Virus record (IMG/VR): IMGVR_UViG_3300036851_000303 | Coordinates: 1-52,764 of that record | Reading direction: 5' to 3' (one strand) | From: a virus | DNA length: 52,764 nucleotides | Shown here: in pieces, positions 1,472 to 40,432 of the stretch | Layout: each line of letters opens with the position of its first letter | Numbering within the stretch: position 1 is the first letter of the stretch | Program-made: the position numbers and the translations under genes | The notes under the pieces: model-generated | The model's database searches: none | What the model was told of the DNA's origin: nothing | What the model saw: only the letters and a program-made list of their open reading frames with translations

Positions 1472-2014
1472 TCATGCCGCGTCACCAGGAGAGGGGGGTA
1501 AAGGCATCCAATGGGTGGGCTCTGGCTCATGTTCCCGTCGAAGCCTCCCGTAAAGCACCCAATCGTTATCCGTATGAAAGTAACCAACCGTGAACCGATG
1601 ACGCCCGGCGTAGGGCACGGCCAGCAGCACCGTTTGTGGACCGACATATGTTGCTATCGGCAACCACGGGCCGATCCCGGCCTGGGGGGACGCCTGAGGT
1701 TTGGTTCCGTGGCTGGGATCGATAAAGCATGCCGCAATGTGCCCCGTGTCTTGATGCAGTTCAGGCGCGATGCACCAATCGGGTTCCTGTGGGGCCTGGG
1801 GGGCCGCAAGGGCGGCTTCCTGGAGCATTCGTTCCAACTCCTTCAGAACCGACGGTGTGATAGACGGGCTGTTGCCGACATGCTGCCCGCCCTTGCCGCG
1901 TGCCTCGATCAGTGCCCGTTCACGAGACACGAACTGCGACAAACGCTCGATCAACTGGGCCTGCCGCTGGGCCGTCATAGGGATCACAGAAGGGATCACA
2001 CCCTTGTCGGACAT
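1472..2014 (-). CDS. DUF551-domain protein next to attP
   Basis: A 180-residue protein. The last third fits the DUF551 pattern: GPWLPIATY, LLAVPY, YFHTDNDWVLYG, then THWMPLPPSP close to the end. The N-terminal half is helical and polar. The ATG at 2014 follows a G-rich Shine-Dalgarno sequence. Its first 12 codons lie on the left GGGATCACA arm-type repeat (1980-2003), so integrase bound to its arm sites could affect this gene. DUF551 has no assigned function. Confidence 0.75.
   Translation of the reverse strand: MSDKGVIPSVIPMTAQRQAQLIERLSQFVSRERALIEARGKGGQHVGNSPSITPSVLKELERMLQEAALAAPQAPQEPDWCIAPELHQDTGHIAACFIDPSHGTKPQASPQAGIGPWLPIATYVGPQTVLLAVPYAGRHRFTVGYFHTDNDWVLYGRLRREHEPEPTHWMPLPPSPGDAA
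1980..2003. repeat. Integrase arm-type repeat, left
   Basis: A 24-base unit made of two GGGATCACA words, GGGATCACAGAAGGGATCAC followed by ACCC. It recurs 23/24 identical and in the same orientation at 2187-2210. The two copies flank the tRNA-derived core, 57 and 78 bases from it, as expected for integrase arm-type sites. Confidence 0.7.
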
Positions 2015-2059
2015 TCAATCCCCCCAGACAACATTAGCGCGTACCCGCCCCCCGCGTTG

Positions 2060-2109
2060 CCTGCCTTGGGCGCAGGGGGTCGCTGGTTCGAATCCAGTCG
2101 CCCCGACCA
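2060..2109 (+). other. attP: attP core: 3' half of a tRNA-Pro(TGG)
   Basis: These 50 bases reproduce a tRNA from its anticodon arm to CCA. There is a stem CCTGC/GCAGG around the loop CTTGGGC (anticodon TGG at 2067-2069), the T-arm GCTGG-TTCGAAT-CCAGT, the 3' acceptor strand CGCCCCG, discriminator A and CCA. The 5' half is absent, so this is not a tRNA gene. It would restore the 3' end of a host tRNA-Pro(UGG) after integration. It lies beside the integrase gene and between two direct arm-type repeats. Confidence 0.88.
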
Positions 2110-2143
2110 AATCACCAGTTTCCCGCGCCAATCGATCACGACC

Positions 2144-2155
2144 GCCCCACATCAG
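2144..2155 (+). promoter_or_regulatory. TCTCCCCACATCA element, variant (CGCCCCACATCA)
   Basis: The conserved 10-base core CCCCACATCA lies in the attP region, between the tRNA core and the right arm repeat. It points against the direction of the neighbouring genes, unlike most copies. Confidence 0.5.
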
Positions 2156-2186
2156 GATACTGGTGGTTACGGCGGGTTCCGAAAAG

Positions 2187-2210
2187 GGGATCACAGAAAG
2201 GATCACACCC
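2187..2210. repeat. Integrase arm-type repeat, right
   Basis: Second copy of the 24-base double GGGATCACA unit, 23/24 identical to 1980-2003 and in the same orientation. It overlaps the stop codon of the small gene that follows int. Confidence 0.7.
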
Positions 2211-2412
2211 GCTCCGGGTCCGTTGGCAGTCCCCGCTTGATGCCCCACAGTAGTTGATACGCCTCTCCGTGGTCCGCGTCGATCTTGATACTCATAGAAC
2301 TGCCTTCGTGGTCCTCACGTTCGAGGAACTGGAGCGCGTGTCCGACATGGGGCGTAACCAATGTGAGATGCGTCTCGCCGTCCACGGCACTGATTTGTAC
2401 CAGAATGTTCAT
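2203..2412 (-). CDS. 69-residue acidic protein coupled to int
   Basis: The ATG overlaps the integrase TGA (ATGA), so the two are translationally coupled. The product begins MNILVQISAVDGETHLTLVT, is acidic and histidine-rich in the middle, and ends GLPTDPERV. No family recognised. Because it sits between int and attP it could be a recombination directionality factor, but it lacks the basic winged-helix look of known excisionases. That role is a guess from position only. Confidence 0.65.
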   Translation of the reverse strand: MNILVQISAVDGETHLTLVTPHVGHALQFLEREDHEGSSMSIKIDADHGEAYQLLWGIKRGLPTDPERV

Positions 2413-3509
2413 ACCCGCTCGAACGGCACCACGACACTCGTCGCGTCCACCGCCTCCTCCTCCACCCTGACCACCGCTTTCACGCTCGCCCTGATTCCAA
2501 GGTCCACGCGATCCATCGCGTCCCGAAGATCGTCCTTCAGCAGATGTGCGTAATGACGCTCCGTCACCGCGACCCCCGCGTGCCCGAGGATCTTGCTCAA
2601 CTTGTAAATGTCTCCACCGCTTTTCAAGTACCGCCACCCGAATGTGTGCCGCATGGTGTGCGGCCCGAGGTGCGGGATGCCGGCGCGTACCGCCGCCTCG
2701 CGAATCACTTCACGCAACCTCTGAGGGTTCTGCGTCCAGAGCTGCCCATCGTCGTCGAGCTGCTGTTGCAGCATCGGTACCAACTCAGCGGGAATCGGCA
2801 CCGTGCGCGTCTTCGAGAACTTGCCCGTCACACGGACAAAGCGTTGAGGAAGGTTAAGATCCGTCGATGCAATACCCCGGCACTCGTCAAGTCGGACACC
2901 GGTACCGAGAAGAAACAGTACGAAACGCTGGAACCGCGGGGACAGTCGTGCGAGGAGGTTCTTCTGCTCGTCGTCCGTGAGGAGCCGTTCGCGGACGGTG
3001 TACGCTTTGCGCTCGATGCCTTTCCACGGGTTCGTGATCTCGTGCCCATCTTCAATCGCCTGCTGCCACAACGCTTGTAGGAAGCTCCGTTCGCGCTGGA
3101 CCGTGTCCTCGCTGATCTTCCCGGGGGTTTTCCGCTTTGGGTTCGCCTGCACGTCGCCGCGCCGCTTGTTCAGATACCGCAGGCAGTCCGTCTTTTTGAT
3201 CTGGTCGAGCGGTGTACTTGGCCCGAAGAACGGCAGCGCGTGTGCCATGATCTGGCGATCCCGCTCGGGCGCCGCCTTCTGACTGCTGTACGTTTTTTCG
3301 TAGAGCGTCCACCACCCACCCAAGGTAGGTACTGTTTTCGTCCACCCGTGCTTGCCCGAGCGGATCTCCGTTTCGAGTTCGGACGCGCGGTGCGCGGCGG
3401 CGTCCTTTGTCCTCTGAGTCGCCACCGGGAATCCGGTCGACAGACGGTACAGCTCCCCCAGGATCTTCTTCTTGAAGTACCACACGCCGCCTCTTTTGAT
3501 CAGGGCCAC
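2409..3509 (-). CDS. int: Tyrosine-type site-specific integrase
   Basis: A 366-residue tyrosine recombinase that should integrate and excise the phage at the tRNA-Pro attachment site. The N-terminal part has a small arm-binding-like domain (RGGVWYFKKKILGE) and a core-binding SAM-like domain. The catalytic residues are all visible: R206 (GTGVRLDE), H284 and R287 (HTMRH), H310 (LGHAG) and the nucleophile Y320 (RHYAHL). I chose the GTG at 3509 because it has AAAGGGGG eight bases upstream; the open frame extends 22 codons further without a good start. The preceding HTH gene is in a different frame and runs far into int. Confidence 0.93.
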   Translation of the reverse strand: MALIKRGGVWYFKKKILGELYRLSTGFPVATQRTKDAAAHRASELETEIRSGKHGWTKTVPTLGGWWTLYEKTYSSQKAAPERDRQIMAHALPFFGPSTPLDQIKKTDCLRYLNKRRGDVQANPKRKTPGKISEDTVQRERSFLQALWQQAIEDGHEITNPWKGIERKAYTVRERLLTDDEQKNLLARLSPRFQRFVLFLLGTGVRLDECRGIASTDLNLPQRFVRVTGKFSKTRTVPIPAELVPMLQQQLDDDGQLWTQNPQRLREVIREAAVRAGIPHLGPHTMRHTFGWRYLKSGGDIYKLSKILGHAGVAVTERHYAHLLKDDLRDAMDRVDLGIRASVKAVVRVEEEAVDATSVVVPFERV

Positions 3510-3693
3510 GACGTTTCCCCCTTTCCATCCAGCGGTCGAGTTCCATTCTGTTGAAGTGAATTCGACCGTCCTCACTGCGAACGAAGGGAATCTTATTCCG
3601 ATGCACCAGCAACTTGATCGCGCCAGGCGTGCGATCGATGTAGCTCGCGCACGTTGTCACGGTGAGCCACATCGGCCACTCGGAAATCGGCAT
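3052..3693 (-). CDS. Helix-turn-helix (excisionase/MerR-like) protein overlapping int
   Basis: The first 60 or so residues look like an HTH_17/excisionase DNA-binding domain: LTVTTCASYIDRTPGAIKLL, then NKIPFVRSEDGRIHFNRMEL and DRWMERGK. After that the frame stays open for about 140 codons on top of int in another frame, and this part has the low-complexity, arginine/glycine-rich look of a shadow frame. So either the gene really overlaps int by 457 bases, or the HTH domain is joined to the integrase by a +1 frameshift or a one-base homopolymer error near AAAGGGGGAAA (3515-3525). Only the N-terminal domain is well supported. The gene could encode the excisionase or a repressor. Confidence 0.6.
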   Translation of the reverse strand: MPISEWPMWLTVTTCASYIDRTPGAIKLLVHRNKIPFVRSEDGRIHFNRMELDRWMERGKRRGPDQKRRRVVLQEEDPGGAVPSVDRIPGGDSEDKGRRRAPRVRTRNGDPLGQARVDENSTYLGWVVDALRKNVQQSEGGARAGSPDHGTRAAVLRAKYTARPDQKDGLPAVSEQAARRRAGEPKAENPREDQRGHGPARTELPTSVVAAGD

Positions 3694-3695
3694 CT

Positions 3696-4079
3696 TTAGT
3701 TGTCGTCCCGCTTCGACCCCGGCACCAAGGGCACATCGTTCACAGGATCAGGATTCAGCACCACCCCGCGCTGTACCAAACTCCGCCCCTGCTCGTCCGT
3801 GATCTCCAGTTGCTCGAAATTGACCCCGAATGCCCGCCCCGCTTGCGTAATGACCGCGCCTAACCCGATGCCCGCCTGCGCGAGCCGCTTCGTCACTTGT
3901 GCAAACACCACCATCTGGGCCTGCGGACTCTCCAGCCCTTCCGTCCCACCGACCCATGCGTTGTACTTCCGCTCCACGAGCGCAATAATTTCCCTGAGCA
4001 TTCGCTGCTCATCCGGCCCTTGCTCGTGGTCTTCCGGGTTCACGACGCCACCTTCGTCGCTGCCCTTATTCGTCGCCAT
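3696..4079 (-). CDS. Unknown protein of the integration module
   Basis: A 127-residue acidic protein beginning MATNKGSDEGG. It has a predicted helical middle (REIIALVERKYNAWVGG) and a glycine-rich turn AGIGLGAVITQAGRAFG. No motif I can assign. Its first 14 bases overlap the end of the RHH gene and its stop is two bases before the HTH ATG, so it belongs to the same operon as int. Confidence 0.7.
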   Translation of the reverse strand: MATNKGSDEGGVVNPEDHEQGPDEQRMLREIIALVERKYNAWVGGTEGLESPQAQMVVFAQVTKRLAQAGIGLGAVITQAGRAFGVNFEQLEITDEQGRSLVQRGVVLNPDPVNDVPLVPGSKRDDN

Positions 4080-4659
4080 TGGTCAGATTTGCTCCATCCC
4101 CGGCGTCTACTTCTAAGAGATGCTTGAACCGGGTCAGCAGCTCTCGTTCGTACCGGTCCCGCCAGTACCCGGCCGGCATCTCCCTAATCTGATGCCGCAT
4201 TTCGGTGACGATCTTCGCCGCCTCTCCTTGGGCGCCTGTGTTGATGTAGTTCTGGATCTGCCGAGTGGCCGTCTCGAAGATCCCCAGGAACTCGATGTTG
4301 TTCTCCTCGGCGGCGAGCAGATCGCGTATCGCATCGATCCGCCGCATCATTGAGGGGATCTCGGCGCGGCGTTCGAGATCGCGGCAGGCGCGGTCAATCG
4401 CGTACCGCACGATGTCGTTGGTCGAGCGGAAGGGGAACTTCTGACTCCGCAGGACGTTGTTCAGCACGGGCATGTACTGCGGGTGGACGCGCAGGGAGAC
4501 GCGCTCGGAGTGCCCGTGGCTGTCCTTGATGGGGATGAGGAACGAGCGTTCGGTCAGCTCCTCATGTGCAGTTTCGATGCTTGAGCGAACAGAATTGTGA
4601 TCTTCTGATGTGGGGTGATGCGTCCCCCGGAGACGTGGTGTGGCTAGCCCGTTCGCCAT
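4066..4659 (-). CDS. Ribbon-helix-helix-like DNA-binding protein
   Basis: A 197-residue protein. Residues about 50-95 fit an RHH fold: a strand ERVSLRVHPQ, a first helix, then the second helix FRSTNDIVRYAIDRACRDL. The C-terminal half is helical and charged (ETATRQIQNYIN, REMPAGYWRDRYERELL). RHH proteins are usually transcription repressors or segregation factors. Located in the integration module, it is one of two candidates here for a lysogeny regulator. The start at 4659 has AAGGA upstream. A near-exact TCTCCCCACATCA element (4606-4618) lies inside codons 14-18, so a shorter product is possible. Confidence 0.65.
   Translation of the reverse strand: MANGLATPRLRGTHHPTSEDHNSVRSSIETAHEELTERSFLIPIKDSHGHSERVSLRVHPQYMPVLNNVLRSQKFPFRSTNDIVRYAIDRACRDLERRAEIPSMMRRIDAIRDLLAAEENNIEFLGIFETATRQIQNYINTGAQGEAAKIVTEMRHQIREMPAGYWRDRYERELLTRFKHLLEVDAGDGANLTNGDE
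4606..4618 (-). promoter_or_regulatory. TCTCCCCACATCA element, variant (TCACCCCACATCA)
   Basis: One mismatch from the consensus, oriented with transcription. It falls within the first codons of the RHH gene. Confidence 0.55.
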
Positions 4660-5139: not shown

Positions 5140-5603
5140 GAGTTGCGATCCCTGCGACGAAGCCAGTAAGAGCCGACGTCCCCTGTGTGATCGTCGTGTT
5201 TTGAGGCTAGGATCGCTACACACCCAGAGTGCTCAGAGTGCCAGTCGGCGGGCGGGTTGCCCGCCTTGATGTAGCACGCACAGCATTGCGATGGGCCGTT
5301 TGAGTCCCAGTGCCGAGCGGGCTGACCACACTCGCACACGAGCGGGACGCGAAAGCGGTCGCCCGGTTTCACGCTGTCGGTACCGATGGTGATTGCCCCG
5401 GTCCCAACGTTTTTGATCTCGATCTCTCTTGTACTGACTGTCGTACCCGATTGGTTCCCGGGTGGCGGAGATCCCGGGTGCTTCTGTTGTGGGCGCACCT
5501 CCCACTCCATGATCCCCTCGTCAGTCGTCGCAAGCATGATGAACTTGTCACCGCGCTTGGTAATCGCCAGATTAGACAAAGCCCAATTAGACAAGTCCCA
5601 CAT
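5136..5603 (-). CDS. Unknown protein with cysteine cluster
   Basis: A 155-residue protein. It starts with a short duplicated stretch (LSNWALSNLA) encoded by two TTGTCTAAT repeats. It has a strand-rich middle with RGDKFIMLATTDEGIMEWEV and VKPGDRFRVPL, and a C-terminal knuckle VCECGQPARHW followed by CCACY that could bind zinc. Overlaps both neighbours by short distances. Function unknown. Confidence 0.65.
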   Translation of the reverse strand: MWDLSNWALSNLAITKRGDKFIMLATTDEGIMEWEVRPQQKHPGSPPPGNQSGTTVSTREIEIKNVGTGAITIGTDSVKPGDRFRVPLVCECGQPARHWDSNGPSQCCACYIKAGNPPADWHSEHSGCVAILASKHDDHTGDVGSYWLRRRDRNS

Positions 5604-6462
5604 CCTCTCGATGCTCCGCCGCGTAATTACACCCTCTGAACCGGTTCGCGCGATCGTAGTGCGCCGCGATGTTCAACCCGCAATCCGCGCAGTCCCCGAG
5701 CGCCCCGATACTCGCGGGCGGCTTCCGCAGAATCGGCTGCTCGGGTACCACCGGCTCGTCGTAATCATCCGCCTTGTCCCGCCCGCGGAACAGCGAATTG
5801 CGCGTGTCCCTGAGTACCCGCTTCACCTTCTCCGGTGTGGCGCCCGCATCGAGCATCATCTGCTCAACAACATCCAAGGGTAGTACCGCCGCGTCCGGGT
5901 CGAGGTCGCGTACCCGCCCCCGGAGCTTCCCTGGTCGCAGATTCGGTACCGCCTGCACCGGTCGTGGAGGGACCCCGAAATCGCGTAACGCATCCGCCAC
6001 CAACGCGCGGATGAACGAGCGGAGCTGTGCCTCGTCAATCTGTTGCCCGCTTCCCCTGCCGTTTTCGCCGAGACTCGTGGTGCGTCCCGTAGTAGCAGGT
6101 ACCGCCGGCCCCTCAATCGGACGACCATCCGGCCCAACGCGTACCCCTTCGAGGAAGGGTACCAATGTGCCCGTTCTGACGTCTTCAATGAAGTACCCGC
6201 CCCCGCGGTGTACCAGACTCACCGGGGAGTACTCCGCAATCCTGTTGCGCACCGTCCGTGTCGCCAGTCCCCCTGTTCTCAACGTGTACGTGTGATCTGG
6301 GTGCAGCGTCACCACCGGGGTACCTCTGTACCTCACCTGAATGTCGCCCGCCTCGCCCGCTTCACCAGGCGCCCGCCTAATCTCAGTGCCCCGCCGCTTA
6401 TCGACCTGTACGACCACGCGTCGCCCCAAGCGGCGCAGGATCTCCTCGTAGGTCATTGCCAT
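5587..6462 (-). CDS. Conserved phage protein, two-domain
   Basis: A 291-residue protein starting at MAMTYEE, chosen because a strong Shine-Dalgarno sequence (GGAGGT) sits nine bases upstream. The N-terminal 90 residues show a pattern seen in many phages: IQVRYRGTPVVTLHPDHTY, then LRTGGLATRTVRNRIAEY. A linker and an acidic helical segment follow (EEAQLRSF-like, VVEQMMLDAGATPEKVKRVL). The end has a cysteine knuckle (GDCADCGLNIAAHYDR...GCNY). Function unknown; it shares the operon with small zinc proteins. Confidence 0.75.
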   Translation of the reverse strand: MAMTYEEILRRLGRRVVVQVDKRRGTEIRRAPGEAGEAGDIQVRYRGTPVVTLHPDHTYTLRTGGLATRTVRNRIAEYSPVSLVHRGGGYFIEDVRTGTLVPFLEGVRVGPDGRPIEGPAVPATTGRTTSLGENGRGSGQQIDEAQLRSFIRALVADALRDFGVPPRPVQAVPNLRPGKLRGRVRDLDPDAAVLPLDVVEQMMLDAGATPEKVKRVLRDTRNSLFRGRDKADDYDEPVVPEQPILRKPPASIGALGDCADCGLNIAAHYDRANRFRGCNYAAEHREDVGLV

Positions 6463-7228: not shown

Positions 7229-7659
7229 TCTTCCCAACCGGCCGCGTTGTGCTTGTGGTACCGTCCGTGGCCTTTCGGGAGGGTGCAACGCATTCCCGAT
7301 AATGTGGCGTCGCACTGATCGTCCGTCGTGGTGCCGTCGATGCGGGCGAGCAGGACGCGAGCGTCTGTCTGCCAATCGCCCGGTATGTCCACCTGATCGG
7401 GGTCTGCGTCTGCGATAGCTTGCAGTAGCTCGCGCATCTCCGGCGCGGCTGCAATCAGGCGGGCGTTGGCCTGCCCTTCGGGATGCGTCAACAGGTGGCG
7501 CGTCCAGTCCTCGCGCACTGTGAACACAACGGGATCATTGCAGTGAATCGGCCGATGGTCAGTCACGAGTTGTAAATCGCCTTCATGTGCGCCCGTTCCG
7601 GTATTGACCGTCGTGCGTCCCCAGCTCCACGGCCCCGGCGTATGCTTCGCTGCACTCAT
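7225..7659 (-). CDS. HTPGPW-type phage protein with C-terminal zinc knuckle
   Basis: A 144-residue protein of a widespread phage family recognised by an N-terminal HTPGPWSWGR and a later EGQANARLIAAAPEMRELL helix. The C-terminus adds CDATLSGMRCTLPKGHGRYH, a CxxxxxxC...H-type knuckle. Family members have no established role. Its own start lies within the end of the paralogue at 7656-7988 and its stop overlaps the next GTG, so it is part of a coupled series. Confidence 0.8.
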   Translation of the reverse strand: MSAAKHTPGPWSWGRTTVNTGTGAHEGDLQLVTDHRPIHCNDPVVFTVREDWTRHLLTHPEGQANARLIAAAPEMRELLQAIADADPDQVDIPGDWQTDARVLLARIDGTTTDDQCDATLSGMRCTLPKGHGRYHKHNAAGWEE

Positions 7660-10647: not shown

Positions 10648-10757
10648 CTTCTACCTCATCCGTAGGGCGCACAGGGATCACACGTACGCGAGCCGACACC
10701 CAATATCGAGCGAATCACTCAGCGTTCGGCCCAAGGTTCGCGCCCATGTCGGGCGCA

Positions 10758-40121: not shown

Positions 40122-40432
40122 GACTGCTGCCCAACCTCTCTAACGTCAACGCGCGGGAAGTGAACTGTGCGTTTCGATCGCGCGATCGTAGTGGGGTCTA
40201 CACCGTTCTCAATGAGCAACGTATCGTCAATGAATGTTCGACTGCCCATGCCTACTGTGACACTCCACTTATCTACTCGGCCTTTCTCAATGCCGTGAGC
40301 AACGAAAAGAGCGCCGATTTCGTTGTTAAGTTCGTCAATACGTGCCTCGGCGGTGTTACGTTCTGCGGTTCTCCGCTGGCGCTCGGTGACGAGCGGGTGG
40401 AGCTGCGCGTAGAGTTCGGGATCAAGTGACAC
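40118..40432 (-). CDS. 104-residue coiled-coil protein
   Basis: Starts at a GTG overlapping the preceding stop by one base (TAGTG). The first half is a coiled coil (HPLVTERQRRTAERNTAEAR, IDELNNEIGALFVAHGIEKG) and the second half short strands (WSVTVGMGSRTFIDDTLLIE). Unknown function. Confidence 0.65.
   Translation of the reverse strand: MSLDPELYAQLHPLVTERQRRTAERNTAEARIDELNNEIGALFVAHGIEKGRVDKWSVTVGMGSRTFIDDTLLIENGVDPTTIARSKRTVHFPRVDVREVGQQS

Follow-up and report, generated by a model that had tools for sequence, protein, structure and literature searches.

The window analysed here comprises all 52,764 nt of IMG/VR record IMGVR_UViG_3300036851_000303. It carries a terminal repeat of 127 nt and is circular; the repeat is most simply explained by a complete circular phage genome, so that the attachment site in it would be attP, not attL or attR. 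A gene for a tyrosine integrase and an excisionase-type helix-turn-helix (HTH) gene adjoin a 50-nt core that corresponds to the 3' half of a tRNA-Pro(TGG), and paired direct repeats flank this core on both sides (Table 1). The DUF551-type ORF at the left arm starts with ATG at 2014, which is preceded by GGGGGGATTGA. On the minus strand of 1996-2248, ORFs antisense to the core read ...GATGFEPATPCAQG...; translations of this type opposite tRNA genes are a familiar spurious product, which automatic annotation may call a gene.

Table 1. Features of the predicted attP region (coordinates of the window).
Feature	Position	Strand	Description
DUF551-type ORF	1472-2014	-	PF04448 at the cut-off, E = 3e-4; left arm corresponds to codons 5-12
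Left arm	1980-2003	+	P1 1980-1988 GGGATCACA, P2 1992-2000 GGGATCACA; period 12
Predicted attP core	2060-2109	+	tRNA-Pro(TGG) 3' half; begins with the anticodon stem 5' strand and ends with CCA
Predicted core-type site	2060-2076	+	CCTGC / GCAGG inverted repeat (anticodon stem) around a 7-nt overlap
Right arm	2187-2210	+	P3 2187-2195 GGGATCACA, P4 2199-2207 AGGATCACA; period 12
Small ORF	2203-2412	-	69 aa; ATG overlaps the int stop codon; own stop codon inside the right arm
Tyrosine integrase (int)	2409-3509	-	366 aa, GTG start at 3509; PF00589, E = 1.6e-22
Excisionase-type HTH ORF	3052-3693	-	HTH at residues 9-59; HTH_17, E = 1.3e-5; phrog_66

The core (CCTGCCTTGGGCGCAGGGGGTCGCTGGTTCGAATCCAGTCGCCCCGACCA) is identical over its full length to positions 28-77 of the host tRNA-Pro(TGG), and contains the anticodon stem, the loop (TGG), the variable region, the T arm, the 3' acceptor strand, and CCA. 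The 27 nt on its 5' side match the tRNA at 7 of 27 positions, and ARAGORN found no whole tRNA in the window. A preliminary description had proposed a 50-base core made of the 3' half of tRNA-Pro(UGG) in an attP next to int, which is correct almost to the nucleotide. Folding this half-tRNA as RNA was also tried and adds nothing.

Exact matches to a 45-mer of the core were sought in 84,980 species, giving 38 loci in about 36 genomes. At 30 of these loci ARAGORN calls an intact tRNA-Pro(TGG) gene whose 3' part is the match, while at L012 the tRNA-Pro is a separate gene, apart from the match. Nearly all of the genomes (32 of 36) belong to one class of Acidobacteriota, which we take to be Vicinamibacteria because it includes a Luteitalea MAG; the remainder are one Gemmatimonadetes, one Bryobacterales, and two Betaproteobacteria MAGs. 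Three MAGs titled Acidimicrobiia also fall within the Vicinamibacteria class. The full 50-mer is present in 35 of 193 Vicinamibacteria genomes, mostly inside intact tRNA-Pro(TGG) genes, and the search of candidate hosts that had been suggested at the outset to name the host therefore returned a host class. Judged by attB identity, which is not in itself proof of infection, Vicinamibacteria are most likely the hosts of this phage. A search of 396 Acidobacteriota genomes found no lysogen of this exact phage. The terminase large subunit (TerL) has no close relative in viral contigs, and its family, with matches in 20 of the 193 class genomes, is uninformative on the host. Known phages gave only short tRNA-like matches, in cyanophages, and among the matches listed their integrases are all less than 30% identical. 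In cyanophages S-H35 and S-B64, an unannotated 47-nt stretch is 87% like the 3' half of tRNA-Pro (in S-H35, KY945241.1 near 40174-40220, or L050 3001-3047); the annotation of S-H35, the one record inspected, lists no integrase closer to it than 3 kb.

The two arms, GGGATCACAGAAGGGATCACACCC on the left and GGGATCACAGAAAGGATCACACCC on the right, are identical at 23 of 24 nt, so that three of the four words are perfect and the fourth reads AGGATCACA; the 24-base direct repeat of two words initially described on each side of the core is thus present. As an estimate of chance, two simulated 150-nt flanks shared an exact 12-nt repeat in 2 of 3000 trials. Genome-wide, GGGATCACA pairs at a spacing of 12 make up only the two arms, with no other near-perfect pair; one further loose pair, in which each word has two mismatches at most, is located at 7520, where about 0.5 are expected per strand. 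The preliminary description had also pointed to a stray word at 10673. This word (AGGGATCACACG) does exist, but chance alone would give 0.3-0.5 single words per strand, and it therefore carries no weight and was rejected as a signal. The arm pattern matched viral contigs eight times; none of these has a tRNA-like core next to the words (judged by eye), and none contains a tRNA gene or matches the query integrases. Among the 193 class genomes, the exact pattern was found at both att ends of one integrated element, L009, and in two other genomes, and the reversed pattern was absent.

The integrated element in L009 (G001, Acidobacteria MAG NC_groundwater_1409) provides the strongest evidence that the arm words matter. 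It is just 3.4 kb long and is bounded by an intact tRNA-Pro (1660-1736) on one side and by a duplicate of the 50-nt core on the other. Its integrase is 61-62% identical to that of the window, and an HTH gene lies alongside and overlaps int, as in the phage. The ends of the element carry GGGATCACAAAAGGGATCACA at -79 and +76, and the words stand at -79/-67 and +76/+88 from the core, compared with -80/-68 and +77/+89 in the window, within surrounding flanks that are otherwise unlike those of the window. Prophages adjoining tRNA-Pro(TGG) had been predicted, with junctions at another locus or the lack of a host tRNA-Pro bearing this 3' half as grounds for refutation; L009 supplies such an integrated element with a relative of the integrase, no junction elsewhere was seen, and the host tRNA-Pro with the core was found.

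Two further relatives add to this comparison. L073 is an otherwise different phage of 52,942 bp, with an integrase that is 64% identical and a TerL without recognisable similarity to that of the window; its core matches at 49 of 50 positions, its arms agree with the paired consensus at 16 of 18 and 14 of 18 positions, and its right arm lies at +76. L004, whose core is the same and whose integrase is related, has a single recognisable word, GTGATCACA at +76; an inverted copy follows at about +110. No left arm is recognisable in L004, which makes it a partial exception that counts against reading the words as attP arms. The orientation of the core relative to int, in which L004 and L009 are opposite to the window and L073, likewise counts against our preferred explanation. 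The arms of L009 keep their orientation to the core, so that in this element int and the attP module as a whole are inverted with respect to each other. The gene int always points at the core, from its 3' side in the window and L073 and from its 5' side in L004 and L009.

In an AlphaFold2 model of the integrase, residues 3-50 are predicted to form a beta-beta-beta-alpha domain (pLDDT of about 80-89), followed by putative core-binding helices and then by the catalytic domain. The best fold match in the PDB is full-length lambda Int (1z1b); at an overall pTM of 0.47, the arrangement of the domains is not readable from the model. Residues R206, K233, H284, R287, H310, and Y320, among which K233 is the presumed catalytic lysine, are invariant in five relatives. 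Taken together, the catalytic residues, the putative arm-binding N-terminal domain, and the arm-type sites flanking the core point to a heterobivalent, lambda-type integrase. The product of the HTH ORF is likely the recombination directionality factor; its match to TIGR01764 (excise) falls below the cut-off. This ORF overlaps the start of int in another frame, and L009 and L004 have the same arrangement. Because the HTH ORF runs out of frame deep into int in all three (int starts at 3509 in the window; 3574-4032 and 3773 in L009; near 5290-5832 and 5567 in L004), the gene overlap is conserved.

We are highly confident that the core and its flanking arms constitute a genuine and clean attP of a temperate phage with a lambda-type integrase. 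Besides their part in recombination, the arms could also be operators, such that Int binding would control the DUF551-type gene or leftward transcription through attP, which we consider unlikely. As initially reported, the arms do overlap genes, with the left one inside the DUF551-type ORF and the right one across the stop codon of the small ORF, and an integrase whose att site overlaps its promoter is known to repress that promoter (PMC2951348). However, no promoter-like site was found within 1800-4200, a compact genome is expected to have such overlaps with gene ends, and the ORFs overlapped in L009 and L073 differ from those of the window. Autorepression as in KplE1 does not follow either, since int is transcribed towards attP here, unlike intS of KplE1 (PMC2951348). 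Interference of Int with transcription, as read from the arm-gene overlap, is thus possible but unsupported, and it is quite unlikely that the words double as operators through which Int at the left arm ties genes beyond attP to the recombination state. If the operator function were real, integration would switch the DUF551-type transcription unit off or on.

Very unlikely, in our estimate, is an attP in which the GGGATCACA words bind the excisionase, that is, the HTH protein, instead of the integrase. Excisionase operators are direct repeats about one helical turn apart (PMC7498355), and the HTH gene is adjacent and is also conserved in L009 and L004. Yet the words are spaced by 12 rather than 10-11 nt, other elements at tRNA-Pro have their own pairs on both sides (L025/L032 and L035, see below), and the pairs on the two sides of the core are matched, as are the arm-type Int sites of Cluster J mycobacteriophages (PMC3706429), which favours Int as the binder. 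That the tRNA piece is a passive fragment left by imprecise excision, or the relic of a phage tRNA, is highly improbable: although L075 and L032 have fossil integrase genes of the window's type beside such fragments, the 50 nt are perfectly identical to present host genes, the genome is circular and complete, int is intact with all catalytic residues, and the arms are conserved and match those of the integrated L009.

Returning to an attP whose arms are bound by Int, the position of the crossover is suggested by partial tRNA-Pro copies in viral sequences. A pattern lying wholly in the T arm and acceptor, with L073 added, gave 24 such copies. All 24 keep the whole anticodon loop, including T33 and G37 (with anticodons TGG, GGG, and CGG), whereas identity in the D half averages 6.8 of 27 positions, which is at chance level; together these features place strand exchange in the anticodon loop. 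Retention of the anticodon stem's 5' strand varies between copies. In L003, the match to the host tRNA starts with the first loop base, although the pattern by which L003 was first found starts there too. In the window, the left edge of the homology falls at tRNA position 28, at the anticodon stem-loop. The overlap would be the 7-nt CTTGGGC of the loop (2065-2071).

Integration may then proceed as follows. The N-terminal domain of Int would hold the paired GGGATCACA words on both sides, while its core-binding and catalytic domains would recombine the 50-nt core with the 3' half of the host tRNA-Pro(TGG), exchanging strands in the anticodon loop at the predicted overlap. The 27 nt of the host 5' tRNA would be joined to the phage copy, so that an intact tRNA-Pro is rebuilt at the prophage end that carries int, and the opposite end (the 1-2059 side) would retain a 50-nt fragment. 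Two junctions are predicted, one reading host flank + CGGGGCGTAGCGCAGCCTGGTAGCGCA + window from 2060, the other window up to 2059 + core + host flank. Encoded directly ahead of int, the HTH protein probably directs excision, and we infer that the phage is active.

This anatomy is already known from other phages; what is new is the attP of this phage and the prediction of its host and attB. The Cluster J mycobacteriophages (Omega, BAKA) have paired arm-type sites and a 44-bp core in an attP 3' of int (PMC3706429). As in the window, their core corresponds to the 3' part of a tRNA gene and starts on the left in the anticodon loop (PMC3706429), a tyrosine integrase is accompanied by paired direct-repeat arms on both sides, and an HTH protein is the candidate directionality factor. 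In contrast, they use tRNA-Leu, another host, and TGCATAC-type 10-mer arm words, have extra inverted sites at the start of int that were not seen in the window, and integrate as demonstrated by experiment. The 'A' (anticodon-loop) class of Islander, with 2083 islands listed (PMC4383910), shares the 3' tRNA fragment, the crossover in the anticodon loop, and the restoration of the tRNA by the element; the window differs in its host class, Vicinamibacteria, and in that the site is deduced from a free phage genome. Lambda has arm-type sites on both sides, a core-type inverted repeat, and a beta-beta-beta-alpha N-terminal domain (predicted for the window), while the tRNA gene as target, the arm words, their spacing, and the directionality factor set the window apart. 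In phage-tRNA-dependent lysogeny, a short core fails to rebuild the tRNA and the phage carries a tRNA of the same kind (PMC10865867); in the window, the 50-nt core rebuilds the tRNA and there is no tRNA gene.

An exact insertion site that can be tested, and a predicted host class, are thereby available for an uncultured environmental phage. To our knowledge, few temperate phages of Vicinamibacteria have been described, and attP and Int could serve as an integration vector in this uncultured clade, for which genetic tools are scarce. Other elements also occupy tRNA-Pro(TGG). On contig JAFDVO010000004.1, L025 (4622-4698) and L032 (1122-1168) bound a 28.5-kb element reaching from an intact tRNA-Pro to a partial core, with identical GGCTGACAATTGGCTGACAAT words and with word pairs of its own, GGCTGACAA, on both sides. 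A short element in L035 is flanked on either side by GCGGCCACA/GTGGCCACA-type words, of which the left pair has a spacing of 12, and L007, L021, L024, and L027 have GGGGTAACA pairs directly after the core. Tandem word pairs thus recur at tRNA-Pro with words that differ by lineage, which marks tRNA-Pro(TGG) as an integration hot spot in Vicinamibacteria for several integrase lineages, each with its own paired arm words, and such lineage-specific words should be useful for reading arm-site specificity from sequence. Beyond the 28.5-kb element lies an integrase of the window's type with an eroded N-terminus. In L085 (1270-1600), a gene for an integrase of another type apparently ends and is followed by GGGATCACAAAAAGGATCACA and then by a sequence resembling the 3' end of another tRNA; here, the same words may serve a different integrase and target.
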